Below are positions 12,062-18,707 of a DNA stretch of 64,000 bases, piece by piece; the first letter of the stretch is position 1; each line of letters begins with the position of its first letter. Below the pieces are notes generated by a model. The model worked only from the letters and a program-made list of their open reading frames with translations. It was not told where the DNA came from and did not search any database. The position numbers and the translations under genes are program-made. Source of the DNA: Curtobacterium sp. A7_M15 (GTDB taxonomy: Bacteria > Actinomycetota > Actinomycetes > Actinomycetales > Microbacteriaceae); the NCBI RefSeq assembly GCF_030705415.1, contig NZ_JAUZED010000005.1, forward strand, positions 1 to 64,000, read 5' to 3'.

Positions 12062-13006
12062 TCAGTACCTCGCGAGCGCCTGCTCACTCAGAGCGACGAG
12101 GTCGTCCGCGCGCATGCCCGGCCATCCGTGCAGCAGCTCGCGCCACTCGGTCGGCAACGCCGCCGCCCCGTACCTAGCTCCCGCGAGCCCGCCGGCGATC
12201 GCGGCCACCGTGTCGGTGTCGTTCCCGGTCCGGACCGCCCGGACGAGAGCGTCCTCGAGGCTCGTGCTCGTGCGCACCGCCGCGTAGGCCGCCTGGAACG
12301 CCGACACGACCCATCCGTTCGAGTCCGTGAAGTCCACCGGCTCCGAATGCTCCGCCGTCACGATGCGGTCGACCCAGGTGCGGCGCTTCTCGAGGTCGAG
12401 CAGGTCGAGCCCGCGCAGCACGTCGAGTTCGCCGGTGAGGACCGCGTGCCGGATCGCCACGCACCAGAGCACGCACGCGTCCCCGGCGTCCGACTCGTAG
12501 TGCGTGAGGTCGCTGATCGCACGGGCGGCCTCGGCGAGCCGGAGCTCCTCGTCGGCTGCGCCGGTCAGGTACCCGAGCACGAGCGGCGCTGTCCGCATGA
12601 GCGATCCGTTGCCGGCCGACCGGCCCCTGGACTCGTGTTCATGCCGGGCTGCAGCGCGCGATGCGGAGGCGACCCGCGCGTCCAGTCCGGCGAGGACGTT
12701 GCGTGTCTGGATGCCGACGTCGGGCGCAGTACGTGCCCAGTCTGCCCAGGCGGCCACCAGGCCGTCGAGAGCCGCCTCGCTGGCGGGATCACCGCCGCGC
12801 GCGACCGTCCGGAGGATCGAGACCGCCATGCTCGTGTCGTCCGTCCACTCCCCCGGGGCCCAGCCGAACGAGCCGCCGCCCGCCATCCGGATCGGCGTGG
12901 GCTCGGGGACGGCAGGGCGGAACTCGTAGCCGGCGCCGAGCGCGTCGCCCGCGGCGGAACCGAGGACGGCGCCGATCGCCCGGTCGGTCTGTTCAGTGGT
13001 CAGCAC
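12062..13006 (-). CDS. ADP-ribosylglycohydrolase (DraG-like)
   Basis: 314-aa enzyme that removes ADP-ribose from proteins or small molecules. It begins with the family opening AIGAVLGSAAGDALGAGYEF, then the metal-binding GEWTDDTSMAVSIL, and ends with AVRTGNDTDTVAAIAGGLAGARYG; together these supply the acidic residues for two Mg ions. GTG 13006 is preceded by AGGAGG with 5 nt spacing, which settles the start. An operator-like palindrome at 13022-13043 lies directly upstream, so repression by the divergent NrtR-type regulator is likely. Confidence 0.92.
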   Translation of the reverse strand: MLTTEQTDRAIGAVLGSAAGDALGAGYEFRPAVPEPTPIRMAGGGSFGWAPGEWTDDTSMAVSILRTVARGGDPASEAALDGLVAAWADWARTAPDVGIQTRNVLAGLDARVASASRAAARHEHESRGRSAGNGSLMRTAPLVLGYLTGAADEELRLAEAARAISDLTHYESDAGDACVLWCVAIRHAVLTGELDVLRGLDLLDLEKRRTWVDRIVTAEHSEPVDFTDSNGWVVSAFQAAYAAVRTSTSLEDALVRAVRTGNDTDTVAAIAGGLAGARYGAAALPTEWRELLHGWPGMRADDLVALSEQALARY

Positions 13007-13021
13007 GGCTGCCTCCTGGTG

Positions 13022-13043
13022 GTTAGCGCGGAATTGCGTAAAT
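13022..13043. promoter_or_regulatory. NrtR-type operator-like palindrome 1
   Basis: GTTAGCGC-N6-GCGTAAAT. It shares both half-sites with the palindrome 44 bp away and lies 5 bp upstream of the ribosome site of the ADP-ribosylglycohydrolase. Confidence 0.7.
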
Positions 13044-13065
13044 CCGAGTCTGCACGATCGCAGCG

Positions 13066-13087
13066 GTTTGCGCAAGTGTGCGTAAAC
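13066..13087. promoter_or_regulatory. NrtR-type operator-like palindrome 2
   Basis: GTTTGCGC-N6-GCGTAAAC, a near-perfect dyad ending 8 bp before the regulator's start at 13096. The 44-bp centre-to-centre distance to the first site is about four helical turns. Confidence 0.75.
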
Positions 13088-13095
13088 TCGCTGTC

Positions 13096-13749
13096 GTGAG
13101 TTCATCGGAGTACCGCGATCCTTCCGGCAAGCGCCTGGTCGACTACCCGCGACCATCCGTCGCTGTGGACACAGCGGTCCTGACCGTGCCTGTGGGGGGA
13201 TTGCTGTCCGTCCTGCAGGTGCGCGATGCGATCGACAGCGACTGGCGCCTGCCGGGGACGTTCGTGCACGAGGGCGAGCGGTTGGCCTCGGCAGTCTTGC
13301 GGTCGTTGTCCGACAAGGCCGGCGTCACCGGCCTGGCGCCGACGCAGTTGCACGTGTTCGATGACCCCTCGCGGGACAGTCGCGGGTGGGTGATGTCGGT
13401 GGCGCACCTCGACGTGGTGCCCTTCTCCGCACTGTCATCGTCGCTGGACTCGTCACGGGCGCGCCTGGTGCCGGTCGACACCGCGACGGGGATGGTGCAC
13501 GGGCACGACGACATCGTGGCGTTCGCGGTGGACTCCTTGCGGGCAGCGTACGCCGGGACCCCCGATCCGCGCGGGCTGCTGCCCGAAGTGTTCACGATGA
13601 CGGAGCTGCGGCACGTGCACGAGGCCGTCCGCGGCGAGCGGCTCCTACCGGACTCGTTCCGGCGGGCGATGCTGCCGCTGCTCGTCGACACGGGGTCGCG
13701 TGCGACTGCCGGGCCGGGCAAGCCGGCGACGCGCTACCGGCGCGCCTGA
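13096..13749 (+). CDS. Nudix-domain transcriptional regulator, NrtR type
   Basis: 217-aa protein joining a Nudix domain (residues about 15-140) to a C-terminal winged helix (about 155-200, LLPEVFTMTELRHVHEAVRGERL with DSFRRAML), the NrtR architecture. The Nudix box is degenerate (EGERLASAVLRSLSDKAGV lacks the REx2EExGU glutamates), as in regulators that bind ADP-ribose or related nucleotides without hydrolysis. GTG 13096 is preferred over in-frame GTG 13078 because the latter lies inside the operator. It probably represses itself and the divergent ADP-ribosylglycohydrolase. Confidence 0.87.
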   Translation: MSSSEYRDPSGKRLVDYPRPSVAVDTAVLTVPVGGLLSVLQVRDAIDSDWRLPGTFVHEGERLASAVLRSLSDKAGVTGLAPTQLHVFDDPSRDSRGWVMSVAHLDVVPFSALSSSLDSSRARLVPVDTATGMVHGHDDIVAFAVDSLRAAYAGTPDPRGLLPEVFTMTELRHVHEAVRGERLLPDSFRRAMLPLLVDTGSRATAGPGKPATRYRRA

Positions 13750-13853: not shown

Positions 13854-14417
13854 TCACGGAAGGTCGGTGGGCCGCGGGTTCAGCGGCGTCCCGAACTTCG
13901 GAGCCTTTCCGCTGACGCAATGCCCCGTGATCGACACATCGGCGTAGGAATCGAAGGCCTGGAACTGCACGAGGAATCCGTCAGGAGCGGCTCCCCTGAG
14001 GTAGCCGTTCGGGTACGCGATGACCGGTCGCGGCGGGGTGAGCGTGTCATCGTGCTCCACCCGAGCACCGCGGTAGCCGATCTTGTCGAGAGCGTCGGCG
14101 ACGCGCTTCGCCAGCTCGTCCGGAGTGGTAGGGAGAGGCAGCTTGCGAGTGGCCGAGTACGTGTACTGAGCTGCATCATGGCCACCGCTTCCGCAGATGA
14201 ACCAGCTCGGCTGCTCATCGCCCCAGCCGTCCTCCCCGACGACTGTCCGAACCGCCGCGAAGATGTTCAGCACGTCTCGGTGAGACTCCGCAACCGTCAT
14301 GGACGAGTCCTTCCCAGCGGCTGAGTGAGGTCCCGTTCCAGCGCAGCCACTCATGGCCAAGGCGGCGACCCCGATCAAGGTCGCGGCCCGAAGCCAACGC
14401 CCAGAGTGCGGTTTCAC
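13854..14417 (-). CDS. Paralogous lipoprotein 5 of the hydrolase operon
   Basis: 187-aa lipoprotein and last gene of the operon. Signal peptide ends in lipobox LAMSGC, followed by AGTGPHSAAGKDSSM. The core shared by all five paralogues is visible: SHRDVLNIFAAVRTVVGEDGW, a Cys-containing WFICGSGGHDAAQY, YPNGY, then GHCVSGKAPKFGTPLNPRP at the C-terminus. Starts at GTG 14417, whose GTGA overlaps the previous stop. The two conserved Cys may form a disulfide. Function unknown; as a surface-anchored family beside a putative secreted effector it could give immunity or act as an adaptor. Confidence 0.85.
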   Translation of the reverse strand: MKPHSGRWLRAATLIGVAALAMSGCAGTGPHSAAGKDSSMTVAESHRDVLNIFAAVRTVVGEDGWGDEQPSWFICGSGGHDAAQYTYSATRKLPLPTTPDELAKRVADALDKIGYRGARVEHDDTLTPPRPVIAYPNGYLRGAAPDGFLVQFQAFDSYADVSITGHCVSGKAPKFGTPLNPRPTDLP

Positions 14418-15049
14418 CGGCGCGTCCTGCCTGCCACGCGAACGTGAACGGATGCCAGCTCCCGTTCGAGACCAGTCGGTCGGGGGTTCAACGACCTCCC
14501 GAGCTTGGGCGGGTCTCCGGGTACGCAGTGCCCGTAGATGATGACGCCGACGAAGCCGGGATCGGTCTGGAACTGCAACCCGTACCCATCGGCAGCGGTC
14601 CCACCGTTGTAGCCGTTCGGGTACCCGATGACCGTCCGGGGAGGCGACAACGTCTCGTCGTGCTGAACGCGGATGCCTTCCATGCCCTGCTTCGACTCGA
14701 GCGTCTCCGCAACGCGCTTCGTGACCTCATCCGGCGTACCGGCGAGCGGCTGGTTCCGGATTGCGGTGAGCATGAACTGCGCGCCCGCTTTGCCCCCGGA
14801 GGAGCAGCCATTCCATTCCGACTCGGTCCCCTTCGCCCAACCGTCCGCTCCGACGACCGACGTGATCGCGGCGAAGATGTCGAGCACATCCTGATGTGAC
14901 TCCTGCACTGTCATGGGTCCGTCCTTGCTCGCAGGGGCGTGAGGTCCGGTGTCCGAGCAGCCGGTGATGAGGGTCGCGATGAGTGCGCACGATCCACCCA
15001 CGACCGCCCATCGGTCACCAGGACGCGTCCCAGCGGCGAGCCGCATCAC
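14414..15049 (-). CDS. Paralogous lipoprotein 4 of the hydrolase operon
   Basis: 211 aa, with a longer N-terminus and lipobox LITGC then SDTGPHAPASKDGPM. It carries the core SHQDVLDIFAAITSVVGADGW, CSSGGKAGAQF, YPNGYNGGTAADGYGLQFQ and GHCVPGDPPKLG. It reads GTG ATG at the start (15049 or 15046), overlapping the preceding gene's TGA. Closest by eye to paralogue 1 (shared DTGPHAPASKD and AQFMLTAIR/AQFTLTAIR). Confidence 0.85.
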   Translation of the reverse strand: MMRLAAGTRPGDRWAVVGGSCALIATLITGCSDTGPHAPASKDGPMTVQESHQDVLDIFAAITSVVGADGWAKGTESEWNGCSSGGKAGAQFMLTAIRNQPLAGTPDEVTKRVAETLESKQGMEGIRVQHDETLSPPRTVIGYPNGYNGGTAADGYGLQFQTDPGFVGVIIYGHCVPGDPPKLGRSLNPRPTGLERELASVHVRVAGRTRR

Positions 15050-15684
15050 GGGGCAACCGTGGGGCTCGGATTCAGCGGGGTTCCGAGCTTCGGCGGCTCA
15101 CCGGAGATGCAGCGGCCGGAGATGATCGTGGCAGCGTAATTGGTGCCGGACTGGAACTGGATTCCGAACCCATCGTTCGCGGTGCCGCCGTTGTACCCGT
15201 TCGGATACCCGATCACGGTCCGCGGTGGCTGCAGTGTCGTGTCGTGCTGAACACGCACATCGTCGTAGCCGGAGGCTTCGAGCGGAGCGGCGACCCGCTT
15301 CGCCACCGCATCCGGTGAATCGCTCAGGGGCGACCGACGCGCTGCGTACAAGCTGAACTGGGAGGCGTCGGACACCGACGGGCAGGAACCCCACGACGAT
15401 TCGAAGTCGTCGTCCCATCCGTCCTCGCCCACCACGCTCTTGATCGTGTCGAACACGTCGGTGACGCTCTGGTGAGCCTGCTCCGGGGTCATCGTCGAGG
15501 CCTTGGTTGCCTCGTCGGACGGGTCCGCGCCCGAACAGCCGGTCACTACGAGAGTGGCCGAGATCGCGATGGCGAGCCCGAAGGAGCCGCGCCGAGAATG
15601 CCGGATCTCCAGCGGACGACGCCGCACGAGGGCTGCCCGAGCTTCATGACGGGCACCGCGTCGGCGTGGAGTGATGCGCTGCAT
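15046..15684 (-). CDS. Paralogous lipoprotein 3, most divergent copy
   Basis: 212 aa from ATG 15684, or 213 aa from GTG 15687 immediately before it; both overlap the previous stop. A long Arg-rich n-region precedes the lipobox LVVTGC. The core is SHQ-like AHQSVTDVFDTIKSVVGEDGW, SCPSVSDASQFSLYAARR, YPNGYNGGTANDGFGIQFQ and GRCISGEPPKLGTPLNPSP. It lacks the TGPHAPA stretch seen in other copies and has GRC in place of GHC, so it is the outlier of the set. Confidence 0.83.
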   Translation of the reverse strand: MQRITPRRRGARHEARAALVRRRPLEIRHSRRGSFGLAIAISATLVVTGCSGADPSDEATKASTMTPEQAHQSVTDVFDTIKSVVGEDGWDDDFESSWGSCPSVSDASQFSLYAARRSPLSDSPDAVAKRVAAPLEASGYDDVRVQHDTTLQPPRTVIGYPNGYNGGTANDGFGIQFQSGTNYAATIISGRCISGEPPKLGTPLNPSPTVAP

Positions 15685-16277
15685 CACGGGAGGTCGGTAG
15701 GCCGAGGATTCAAGGAGCTGCCGAGCTTCGGCACGCTCCCGGGCACGCAGTGTCCGTAGACCGAGAGGTCGGCGTATCCGTCGTTCACCTGGAACTGGAT
15801 CCCGAACCCGTCCGCTGCAGTGCCGCCGTTGTAACCGTTCGGGTAGCCGATCACTGTGCGTTTCGGCGTCAGAGTCTTGTCCTGCTGCACCCGCGCTCCT
15901 CCGTATCCGATCGCGTCCAGGGCATGCGCGACCTCCCCTGCGACTCCGTCGGGTGTACCCGGCAACGGGAGCTTGCGCGTCGCCGCGTACGCGTACTGCG
16001 CAGCGGCAGTCCCCCCGCTGCTGCAGATGTTCCAGCCCGCATCGTCGTCGCCCCAACCATCCTTTCCGACGACACCCTGGACCGCAGCGACGATGTCGAG
16101 AACGTCTTGGTGGGATTGCCCAATGTTCATTGTCGTGTCCTCACCAGCGGGATCGTGCGGGCGGGTCTCACTGCACGCCGAGACGAGCGTGGCAGCGACG
16201 ACTGCTACGGCGAGCGCGCCGGAGCGTCGAGGTCCGCCCGTCCGTGAGCTGTGTCTGACCGCTGCGTGAAGCCGCAC
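15684..16277 (-). CDS. Paralogous lipoprotein 2 of the hydrolase operon
   Basis: 197 aa from GTG 16277, which overlaps the TAG of the previous gene by one base (TAGTG). Lipobox LVSAC, then SETRPHDPAGEDTTM. The core is SHQDVLDIVAAVQGVVGKDGW, ICSSGGTAAAQYAYAATRKLPLP, YPNGYNGGTAADGFGIQFQ and GHCVPGSVPKLGSSLNPRPTDLP. The shared ATRKLPLP pairs it with paralogue 5, suggesting the array grew by block duplication. Confidence 0.84.
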   Translation of the reverse strand: MRLHAAVRHSSRTGGPRRSGALAVAVVAATLVSACSETRPHDPAGEDTTMNIGQSHQDVLDIVAAVQGVVGKDGWGDDDAGWNICSSGGTAAAQYAYAATRKLPLPGTPDGVAGEVAHALDAIGYGGARVQQDKTLTPKRTVIGYPNGYNGGTAADGFGIQFQVNDGYADLSVYGHCVPGSVPKLGSSLNPRPTDLP

Positions 16278-16846
16278 TACGGGAGATCGGTCGGACGCGG
16301 ATTCAGAGGGGTACCGAGGTTCGGCACTTTCCCCGGCACGCAATGTCCCCACACGAGGAGGCTGGCGAAGTCCGTACCGGACTGGAACTCCACGCCGAAC
16401 CCGTCCGCGGCGGTCCCGCCGTTGTAACCGTTGGGGTATGACACGACCGTCCGCGGCGGACGCAGCGTGTCGTCGTGCTGCACGGGAACACCGTCCAACC
16501 CCACGTCGGTCTTCAACGCCTTCGCAACACCTCGAGTCACCTCATCGGGTGCTGCGGGCAGCGGATGCTTGCGGATGGCCGTGAGCGTGAATTGAGCACC
16601 GTCGTCTCCGTTCGATGAACAGTCGTTCCATCCGGATACTGTTCCCTCGTCCCAGCCTTCCGCTCCGACGACCGACTTCACCGCTCGGAAGATGCTCATC
16701 ACGTTCTCGTGGGACTGTTCGGGGGTCATCGAGGAGTCCTTACTGGCAGGAGCATGCGGACCAGTGTCGGAGCATGCGGTCAAGAGGAGCACGGCGGCGG
16801 CGACCAATCCGCCCATTTGAGTCAAGCGTCTAGAGCGTGGGGTCAC
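16277..16846 (-). CDS. Paralogous lipoprotein 1 of the hydrolase operon
   Basis: 189 aa from GTG 16846, 17 bp inside the end of the hydrolase gene; the GTG gives a basic n-region (TPRSRR), unlike ATG 16816, which would start at the hydrophobic stretch. Lipobox LLTAC, then SDTGPHAPASKDSSM. The core is SHENVMSIFRAVKSVVGAEGW, DCSSNGDDGAQFTLTAIRKHPLP, YPNGYNGGTAADGFGVEFQ and GHCVPGKVPNLGTPLNPRPTDLP. First of five tandem copies after the hydrolase. Confidence 0.84.
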   Translation of the reverse strand: MTPRSRRLTQMGGLVAAAVLLLTACSDTGPHAPASKDSSMTPEQSHENVMSIFRAVKSVVGAEGWDEGTVSGWNDCSSNGDDGAQFTLTAIRKHPLPAAPDEVTRGVAKALKTDVGLDGVPVQHDDTLRPPRTVVSYPNGYNGGTAADGFGVEFQSGTDFASLLVWGHCVPGKVPNLGTPLNPRPTDLP

Positions 16847-18707
16847 CGGTGAGTCCTGTCTGCCACTGGTACATGAACCAATTGTCCTTCGTTTGCTGCC
16901 GCATCCGATCGAACGGGGCGCCAGCCTCCGGGATCTCATCGCCCAGTCCCATCGTCGCTTTCGCGGTGTAGTACTGCGAGGTCGTGTTGTTGTCGAAGTA
17001 CGAGTAGCGACCTTGATCGTTGCCCTCGCGGCCGTCGTACGGGCCGTGGTGCGTGACGCCGTGCAACTCGTCAGCGCCGGACCCTTGCGTTTCGGAGCTG
17101 AAGTCATGGGCGTCCCAGGACGGGTCCGTAGGGTCCTGACGGCCCGACAGGTTCTGTCCCGTGATCGCCCACCCGTCCTTCGCACCCTGGCTTGCGAACA
17201 CCTCGCCCCTCGGTACCTGCAGCGCCTCGGCGTTCGGCGCCACATCCGTGACTCCTGCGGACCCGAGGAGCACGACGTGGTCAGCGTGTGTCTTCGTCAG
17301 GGCGATGGTCGCCACGTTGGTGCCGTAGGAGTGTCCGACGACCGACAGGTCGGCGTCCCTACCCGACGCTGCCCGGACCGCGTCGAAGCCGTTCAGATCG
17401 GTGGCGAGGGCGTCAGCGCCCGTGTGGGCGCGTCCGTTGGCCACGACCGAGGCGAACGACAGGTCGTCGGCCATCGGGCCGTGGTAACCGATCCATGACA
17501 CCACCGCGACGTCAGAGGGCAGGACACCGCCCACCGCGGCTTGACGACTGCGCATCCCCTCGGCGATCGTCGCGTAGTTGCTCACGGTCCCGTCCTGGTA
17601 CGTCGCCGTGTTCATGCCAGGCACGATGTACGTCACGTGTGCAGCTGTGTCCATGTCACCGGCGACGATCTGCGCCAGCGGCGGCCTGTCATCGACGAGC
17701 GAGATGAGCGAGACGGCCTTCGTCTTCAACGTGTCCTGAATGTTCTGGTACCCGTCGCGCTGCCGCTGCCAGGTCTGCAGTTGCGCTCTCGCAGCCGCGG
17801 CAGCCGCAGGGCTCGAGGCGTTCTTCAACTGCTTCTCCCAGTACGACGTCTTCTTGTTCGCTTCGGTCAACTTGCTCGTGAGCACCCTCTTGTTCGCTCG
17901 CGCCCTCGCCCAGTAGGCGACGCCGTTCAGGTTCCCGAGCGCCGCCGGGATAGCCGCGACGAACGCATCCTGCTCAGCAGAGTGCGCACCGTCCGGACCG
18001 GACATCGCCGACCACCACGCCGCCACGTCCTTCGCGTCCATACGCGCCAAGCGTGCAGCAATCGTCGGGTCGTCCTCCAACGCGGCGATCGACTCCTTGT
18101 CGAGCGAGCCGAGCCACGTGAGGAACTGCCCGTCGCTCATCTTCGCCACGGCCGCGGCAGACTTCAGCTTCCCGACGACCTCCGGTGCTTCCAGAGCCGA
18201 GGCAACCTGTCGATCGGCAGCGTCGCGCCGCGTCACCAGCTCTTCCCACTGCGCCGACAACCGTCCCTGGAGCCCGGCAAGGCTCGCGGCTCCGTTCTGC
18301 AACTGGTGCAGCTTCGTCGTGTCGGACTCCACCGCGTCCGCGCTCTCGACAGCCTGGGTCGCGGAGCGGATCGCGCGGGCGTTCGCCGCGACGTCGTCGG
18401 CCGCACTCTGCTGGGCAGTCTGTACGCGCTGCGCTTCGTCCTGGATCCGCTGGACCTCACTCGCGTAGGTGTCCAAGGCCGACGCGGCCTCATCGAGTCG
18501 CGCCGCGGTTCGCTGCGCACTCGCCGGCACCGTCGCCGCCACCGAGACGAACCGCTCCTGCGCCTTCCCGGTCCACCCCGACTGCGCCGCCTCAGCAGCG
18601 TCCACCACGTGTCGAGCCCCCGCACGGACCGCGTCAGCGTGCTGCGTGTGCAGGCGTGCGAGCCGACGGATCCCGTCCGGGTCACCCGCTGTCGGATCGG
18701 CGGTCAT
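16830..18707 (-). CDS. WXG-hairpin protein with DUF1023-type alpha/beta hydrolase domain
   Basis: 625 aa with no cleavable signal peptide. Residues about 1-110 form a helical hairpin with a WXG motif (SGWTGKAQERF) followed by a coiled-coil stretch rich in Ala, Gln and Glu, as in LXG or WXG substrates of type VII secretion. The C-terminal half is a DUF1023-like alpha/beta hydrolase with nucleophile elbow VVGHSYGTN near residue 457 and a late His in VTHHGPYDG. The start overlaps the upstream small gene by ATGA. Substrate unknown; it may be an exported esterase or lipase effector. Five lipoproteins follow in the same operon. Confidence 0.85.
   Translation of the reverse strand: MTADPTAGDPDGIRRLARLHTQHADAVRAGARHVVDAAEAAQSGWTGKAQERFVSVAATVPASAQRTAARLDEAASALDTYASEVQRIQDEAQRVQTAQQSAADDVAANARAIRSATQAVESADAVESDTTKLHQLQNGAASLAGLQGRLSAQWEELVTRRDAADRQVASALEAPEVVGKLKSAAAVAKMSDGQFLTWLGSLDKESIAALEDDPTIAARLARMDAKDVAAWWSAMSGPDGAHSAEQDAFVAAIPAALGNLNGVAYWARARANKRVLTSKLTEANKKTSYWEKQLKNASSPAAAAAARAQLQTWQRQRDGYQNIQDTLKTKAVSLISLVDDRPPLAQIVAGDMDTAAHVTYIVPGMNTATYQDGTVSNYATIAEGMRSRQAAVGGVLPSDVAVVSWIGYHGPMADDLSFASVVANGRAHTGADALATDLNGFDAVRAASGRDADLSVVGHSYGTNVATIALTKTHADHVVLLGSAGVTDVAPNAEALQVPRGEVFASQGAKDGWAITGQNLSGRQDPTDPSWDAHDFSSETQGSGADELHGVTHHGPYDGREGNDQGRYSYFDNNTTSQYYTAKATMGLGDEIPEAGAPFDRMRQQTKDNWFMYQWQTGLTGDPTL

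Follow-up and report, generated by a model that had tools for sequence, protein, structure and literature searches.

Paired operators predicted to link an NrtR-type Nudix regulator with an ADP-ribosylglycohydrolase gene in Curtobacterium

The window analysed here is the whole stretch of 64,000 nucleotides at positions 1 to 64,000 of contig NZ_JAUZED010000005.1 of Curtobacterium sp. A7_M15. Within it, an ADP-ribosylglycohydrolase gene (ARG) and the gene for an NrtR-type regulator are divergently oriented, and the gap between them holds two palindromes:

12062-13006, minus strand: ADP-ribosylglycohydrolase of the ARG/DraG family, 314 aa, GTG start, PF03747 at 184 bits
13022-13043, no strand assigned: predicted operator 1, ARG-proximal, GTTAGCGCGGAATTGCGTAAAT, with arms GTTAGCGC-N6-GCGTAAAT, 4 bp past the ARG Shine-Dalgarno sequence
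13066-13087, no strand assigned: predicted operator 2, regulator-proximal, GTTTGCGCAAGTGTGCGTAAAC, with arms GTTTGCGC-N6-GCGTAAAC
13096-13749, plus strand: NrtR-type regulator, 217 aa, GTG start, with a degenerate Nudix domain and a C-terminal winged helix

The initial annotation had named both genes correctly: the hydrolase matches PF03747 (ADP_ribosyl_GH) at the score listed above and the regulator matches PF21906 (NrtR_WHD) at 49.2 bits, for which the cut-off is 27. The TDDT and D-x-D-T motifs of ARG, which we take to be metal-binding, align with those of solved ARG and DraG chains, and by the NCBIfam cut-offs the protein is neither DraG nor Tri1 proper (102.6 bits against a cut-off of 337 and 117.9 bits against a cut-off of 490, respectively). 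Among the seven neighbouring proteins scanned there was no coupled transferase, and no phosphatase, chaperone or ARPP; PADLOC matched no model when run on four proteins, and no phage link was seen.

The regulator also scores 20.9 bits against PF00293, slightly below the cut-off of 21.1, and its closest named relative, from Curtobacterium sp. B18, is 92% identical. Its AlphaFold model has a mean pLDDT of 93.7, and a Foldseek search with this model returned 5bs6, 3gz6 and 3gz5, with AraR and Shewanella NrtR as the best matches. In the Nudix box, LPGTFVHEGERLASAVLRSLSDKAGV, the glutamates of the REUXEE motif are changed to S, D and K; the Nudix domain is probably enzyme-dead, and a degenerate box has also been reported for other NrtR proteins (PMC4666351, PMC6800001).

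Elsewhere in the window, at 13854-17245 and 16830-18707 (minus strand), inspection by eye picked out several tandem related lipoprotein-like genes beside an Abhydrolase_8 gene (81.9 bits), the N-terminus of which is WXG100-like at 24.4 bits, below the cut-off. The two tandem lipoproteins that were scanned matched no Pfam family, and the locus looks like a secreted effector with repeated immunity-like genes.

Both palindromes are 22 bp long, they start 44 bp apart, and they were found exactly where the initial annotation had placed them between the divergent genes. Between operator 1 and the start codon of ARG (minus strand, 13006) there are 15 bp, and between operator 2 and that of the regulator (plus strand, 13096) there are 8 bp. 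When the genome of the strain was scanned with a pattern of the type first proposed, the two operators and no other place matched at 0-1 mismatch, and the motif is not scattered through the genome. At up to three mismatches the scans returned background levels only, with 3 matches in the window against 1.45 expected, which is not significant, and 30 in the genome, rarer than matches to the reversed pattern (53).

For the genus, the pattern GTTTRCGC-N6-GCGYAAAC was picked after aligned relatives had been inspected; operator 2 fits it without a mismatch and operator 1 with two, which leaves the window's operator 1 outside the sites counted next. In 66 Curtobacterium genomes, for which site and regulator coordinates were matched by eye, 62 sites with at most one mismatch were found in 33 genomes and all 62 lie beside the regulator; the reversed control pattern gave no site at that threshold in the same genomes. 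The regulator is present in 37 of the 66 genomes, and in each of these 37 it is adjoined by an orthologous ARG, which is in two pieces in G026 and G033; in G026 the regulator search returned a further, partial match as well. Of the 29 genomes in which the regulator is missing, not one has an operator site within one mismatch. The genus genomes are related, and the 62 sites are therefore not 62 independent events. At this stringency the regulon in the genus is the ARG/regulator locus alone. That the palindromes are chance occurrences, or serve some other factor, is extremely improbable: it would fit the three-mismatch matches, which are no commoner than chance, but not the confinement of all genus sites to the side of the regulator and their absence from every genome without it.

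Four of the regulator-bearing genomes (G012, G021, G037 and G045; regulator 70% identical) have no site within one mismatch, and two loci with similarly distant regulators, L037 (69% identical) and L038 (68%), have sites with two mismatches. When 24 Curtobacterium-group loci were compared (the window and L018-L040, a set that shares some strains with the 66 genomes), twin sites within two mismatches of the genus pattern were present in every one, spaced by 44 bp in 13 loci, by 43 bp in eight and by 39, 48 and 49 bp once each. Across these loci conservation is stronger at operator 2 than at operator 1. Co-occurrence, position and cross-genus conservation thus agree with the proposal, already made in the initial annotation, that the sites are the regulator's own, and support the palindromes as predicted operators of the NrtR-type regulator.

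A second ARG, 54-61% identical, is found in 12 of the 66 genus genomes. It was considered as a further regulon target, and control of this paralogue was set aside because none of the 62 sites lies near it. The second ARG type occurs without the regulator in G002, G024, G036, G041, G043, G044 and G046.

Beyond the genus, a regulator profile built from one alignment (A1) found the regulator at E <=1e-30 in 47 of 398 Microbacteriaceae genomes and in 36 of 394 genomes of the class, two sets that overlap. Of the 78 non-genus places, 75 were retrieved (all but G457, G520 and the second place in G390), and one of these, L138, which had no BLAST match, was excluded from the ARG-linkage, matrix and residue counts. 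An ARG is present in the retrieved stretch of 51 of the remaining 74 loci: in 40/48 where the regulator scores at least 160 bits by BLAST, in 6/11 at 120-160 bits and in 5/15 below 120 bits. In the stretches of the other eight close loci, some of them on short contigs, no ARG was found.

A matrix trained on the 24 genus-group loci was tested on other genera, with L075, from the same genome as L041, left out of this test only. In 39 of the 47 close non-genus loci the top matrix site of the ~10-kb stretch falls in the 150-bp segment immediately 5' of the regulator, with a score of 10 or more in 34 and below 10 in five; in the other eight it lies outside the regulator promoter. Eight symmetric column-shuffled matrices placed their top site there in 0, 3, 1, 4, 1, 1, 13 and 2 of the 47 loci, and of the 13 reached by one of them five score at least 10. 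Sites scoring at least 10 in the 47 loci number 53, with 49 at the regulator promoter and four elsewhere, and the 49 give a broadened consensus, TTWGCGC-N6-GCGCWAA, in the right arm of which the third position from the N6 spacer is often T or A. Among distal sites, that of L094 is inside a predicted reading frame and is probably noise. In L105 the ARG is not divergent from the regulator and an operator pair lies at +1701 and +1746; we infer that this pair is at the ARG's own promoter, given a start 23 codons inside the longest frame, where the conserved N-terminus points.

At L116 a SIR2-like gene (159-1869; PF13289, 79.6 bits), which we take to encode a predicted NADase-type effector, has an operator-like site (score 21.7) ~105 bp upstream, counted from the first possible start. 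The gene is 4.8 kb from the regulator, the divergent neighbour of which is a metallophosphatase.

The position of the window operators relative to the expression signals of both genes was considered with two further features:

13012-13017, minus strand: AGGAGG Shine-Dalgarno sequence of ARG, 5 nt ahead of the ARG start codon, read directly from the sequence
13083-13088, plus strand: TAAACT, a candidate for the regulator's -10 hexamer, which overlaps operator 2 and lies 7 nt before the start codon

In all 24 genus-group loci an in-frame ATG or GTG lies 6-7 nt 3' of the TAAACT hexamer, and in three of them an in-frame GTG lies 1 nt 3' of it as well. Spacing of this kind between hexamer and start is expected for leaderless mRNAs in actinobacteria, and the -10-to-start distance suggests that the regulator mRNA may be leaderless; operator 2 would therefore cover the regulator's own promoter. 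A sigma-70 consensus scan of 12960-13140 gave no match, so the promoter positions are given as candidates. For ARG, a -10/-35 candidate on the minus strand noted by eye (CAGACT and TTGCGC, 17 nt apart) was weak and was not retained.

In another reading the palindromes would autoregulate the regulator only, with ARG as a passive neighbour. The better conservation of operator 2 and the presence of a single strong site in some loci are in keeping with such an arrangement, yet the second, ARG-side site is kept in 24/24 genus-group loci and L105 has its operator pair at a separate ARG gene, and autoregulation alone is accordingly considered very unlikely.

The ligand was approached through the Nudix pocket. 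According to the portions of PMC4666351 drawn on here, Shewanella NrtR contacts ADP-ribose through K76 and R98, among other residues, and in AraR these positions are occupied by Leu and Gly, respectively. Regulator residues K74 and R96 align with K76 and R98, the equivalence resting on alignments and on a three-residue chain offset derived from AraR numbering. K74 is present in 49/49 ARG-type rows of a second alignment (A2); as A2 is a chosen set of 56 rows, the residue count was redone on the full set of 74 non-genus loci that had a BLAST match. Of the 55 regulators linked to an ARG or an ARPP, all have R96 and 54 have K74, the exception being L103 with R. Where neither gene is in the stretch (n=19), 11 regulators have both K74 and R96, 17 keep R96, and L145 and L146 have neither residue. 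Because R93 is shared by linked and unlinked rows without exception, it is no evidence for the ligand. Pentose-type regulation was also considered, and fits less well because K74 and R96, the residues replaced in the arabinose-type AraR, are kept in the regulator. Conservation of the two residues lends indirect support to ADP-ribose as the putative ligand. The presence of R96 in most of the unlinked regulators counts against this, and the variability of R43, aligned near the Shewanella R41 contact, speaks against an exact match of the pockets.

In six regulators from other families of the class (L136, L137 and L139-L142), with no ARG or ARPP near, position 74 is E and R96 is kept; the Nudix boxes of these proteins may be catalytic.

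A regulator of this family might instead read NAD or ADP-ribose as a signal of NAD level; ARG would then have a housekeeping function matched to NAD turnover and would not be a switch set off by ADP-ribosylation of cell components. NAD genes are under the control of several members of the NrtR family, and NdnR of C. glutamicum responds to NAD (both as described in PMC4666351); among NCBIfam models the nearest to the regulator describes an ADP-ribose-responsive repressor, with a score of 78.3 bits, far below the cut-off of 400. However, the genome of the strain has a second NrtR beside a nadA-like frame (L001, on contig C206), with T at position 74 and S at position 96 in place of K74 and R96. 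In a maximum-likelihood tree of the 56 chosen regulators (A2), the bootstrap of which had not settled, this nadA-linked type falls outside the ARG-type clade: the 49 ARG-type rows, of which 39 are ARG-linked, are set apart from it and from the other regulators by a split with support of 100/98. ARG linkage needs 11 label changes on this tree and is not a clean clade mark. Since the ARG locus accounts for every one of the 62 genus sites and the ARG/regulator pair occurs in only 37/66 genus genomes, unlike a core NAD function, an NAD-level role for the pair is judged unlikely.

Relatives of the locus carry additional genes. At L041 (Homoserinimonas), ARPP-1 (174.9 bits), NT5C (48.5 bits) and ARG (184.9 bits) share one strand behind the operators. 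The L094 regulator has as divergent neighbours a phosphatase-like gene (DSPc at 22.9 bits, below the cut-off) and a TY-Chap2 gene (213.1 bits), and NT5C is nearby; no ARG was found in this stretch and no strong operator in the regulator promoter. ARPP, NT5C and TY-Chap2 are named parts of the ARG-centric systems described in PMC9503650, and the window locus is therefore read as a minimal, two-gene member of these systems.

Phosphatases accompany the larger versions, and with their help ADP-ribose might be processed into the actual inducer, which could be a nucleoside, a ribose phosphate or ADP-ribose 1''-phosphate, among others. NT5C in L041, the metallophosphatase of L116 and the sub-cut-off DSPc-like gene of L094 are consistent with this, as is the variability of R43, near the Shewanella R41 contact, which is R in only 24/49 ARG-type rows of A2. 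Against it stand the near-invariance of K74 and R96 in the linked regulators and the lack of a phosphatase among the seven neighbours scanned at the window locus, and a processed inducer is regarded as conceivable but somewhat unlikely.

An ADP-ribosylglycohydrolase locus of two genes that acts as a self-inducing ADP-ribose switch, perhaps in repair or defence, is, in our judgement, a likely description of the window locus. In the arrangement that we infer, the regulator, a Nudix sensor fused to a winged helix, would sit as a dimer on each palindrome: at operator 2 it would overlie the putative -10 element for its own probably leaderless mRNA, and at operator 1 it would lie just ahead of the ribosome-binding site of ARG. 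With both control regions covered, both genes would be held low. When ADP-ribosylated molecules give off ADP-ribose or a close derivative of it, this ligand would enter the Nudix pocket and the repressor would come off the DNA. The ARG then made would strip ADP-ribose from arginine-type adducts and yield more ligand, forming a positive loop, and once the ligand had been cleared fresh repressor would close the locus again, forming a negative one. The feedback through ADP-ribose that the initial annotation had suggested is plausible, and is already in print: section 3.8 of PMC9503650 (2022) proposed that the ADP-ribose which ARG releases acts as the signal for Nudix-HTH repressors and so induces the operon.

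ARG-centric systems are themselves a prediction, and no described control site for them was found in the literature searched. A defined operator, present in the genus at one locus only, makes the proposed ADP-ribose feedback directly testable, and its sequence could serve to locate further members of the regulon at loci with a rearranged gene order, the SIR2-like gene of L116 being one example. A broader reading can be offered tentatively, as a possibility to which we give less than even weight: that a clade of Nudix repressors using TTWGCGC-N6-GCGCWAA serves actinomycetes as an ADP-ribose alarm, sensing ADP-ribosylation by phage or rivals and inducing removal enzymes and, in places, effectors.

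In a separate phylum, locus L049 (1411-6276; Bacteroidaceae) has in a row a nucleotidyltransferase-NADAR gene, a NADAR gene, an NrtR-like regulator gene and a gene for an 846-aa phosphatase-ARG fusion. By its predicted domains this is an ADP-ribose-processing cluster with an NrtR-like regulator.

Among the literature matches listed, PMC9503650 is the sole direct precedent. In the sections drawn on here, the ARG-centric systems combine the same ARG with a Nudix-HTH regulator in actinobacteria and carry the same proposed ADP-ribose feedback; the regulators are of Nudix- or WYL-HTH type, an accessory phosphatase, chaperone or ARPP is frequent though not universal, and the systems have no coupled ADP-ribosyltransferase and are predicted to counter phage ADP-ribosylation. 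The window version differs in having just two genes. A term search of the main text of PMC9503650 found neither 'palindrom' nor 'operator', and within the literature searched four points are new: the operator itself, its conservation, the restriction of the regulon to one locus and the overlap with the candidate promoter.

Compared with characterised members of the regulator family, Shewanella oneidensis NrtR (3gz5/3gz6/3gz8) shares the fold, the domain order and, by alignment, the two contact residues, whereas identity in the structural match is ~29-30% and the target is NAD metabolism rather than ARG. Mycobacterium smegmatis NrtR is, as reported in the portions of PMC6800001 used here, an actinobacterial auto-repressor with no detected Nudix activity that is released by ADP-ribose and has its palindrome between nrtR and the target operon; unlike at the window locus, that operator is GTTTTCGA-N7-TCGAAAAC and the target is nadABC, and in the genome studied here the nadA-adjacent paralogue L001 is its likely counterpart. 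AraR of Bacteroides thetaiotaomicron is the regulator's best Foldseek match, yet it is arabinose-responsive and has Gly and Leu where the regulator has R96 and K74; it was placed in the NrtR family by its authors and is likewise off the usual NAD-type target (PMC4666351), a target that is customary for the family and no part of its structural definition. On the enzyme side, the DraG and Tri1 hydrolases have the ARG domain and the TDDT and D-x-D-T motifs in common with the window ARG, which scores below the cut-offs of both.
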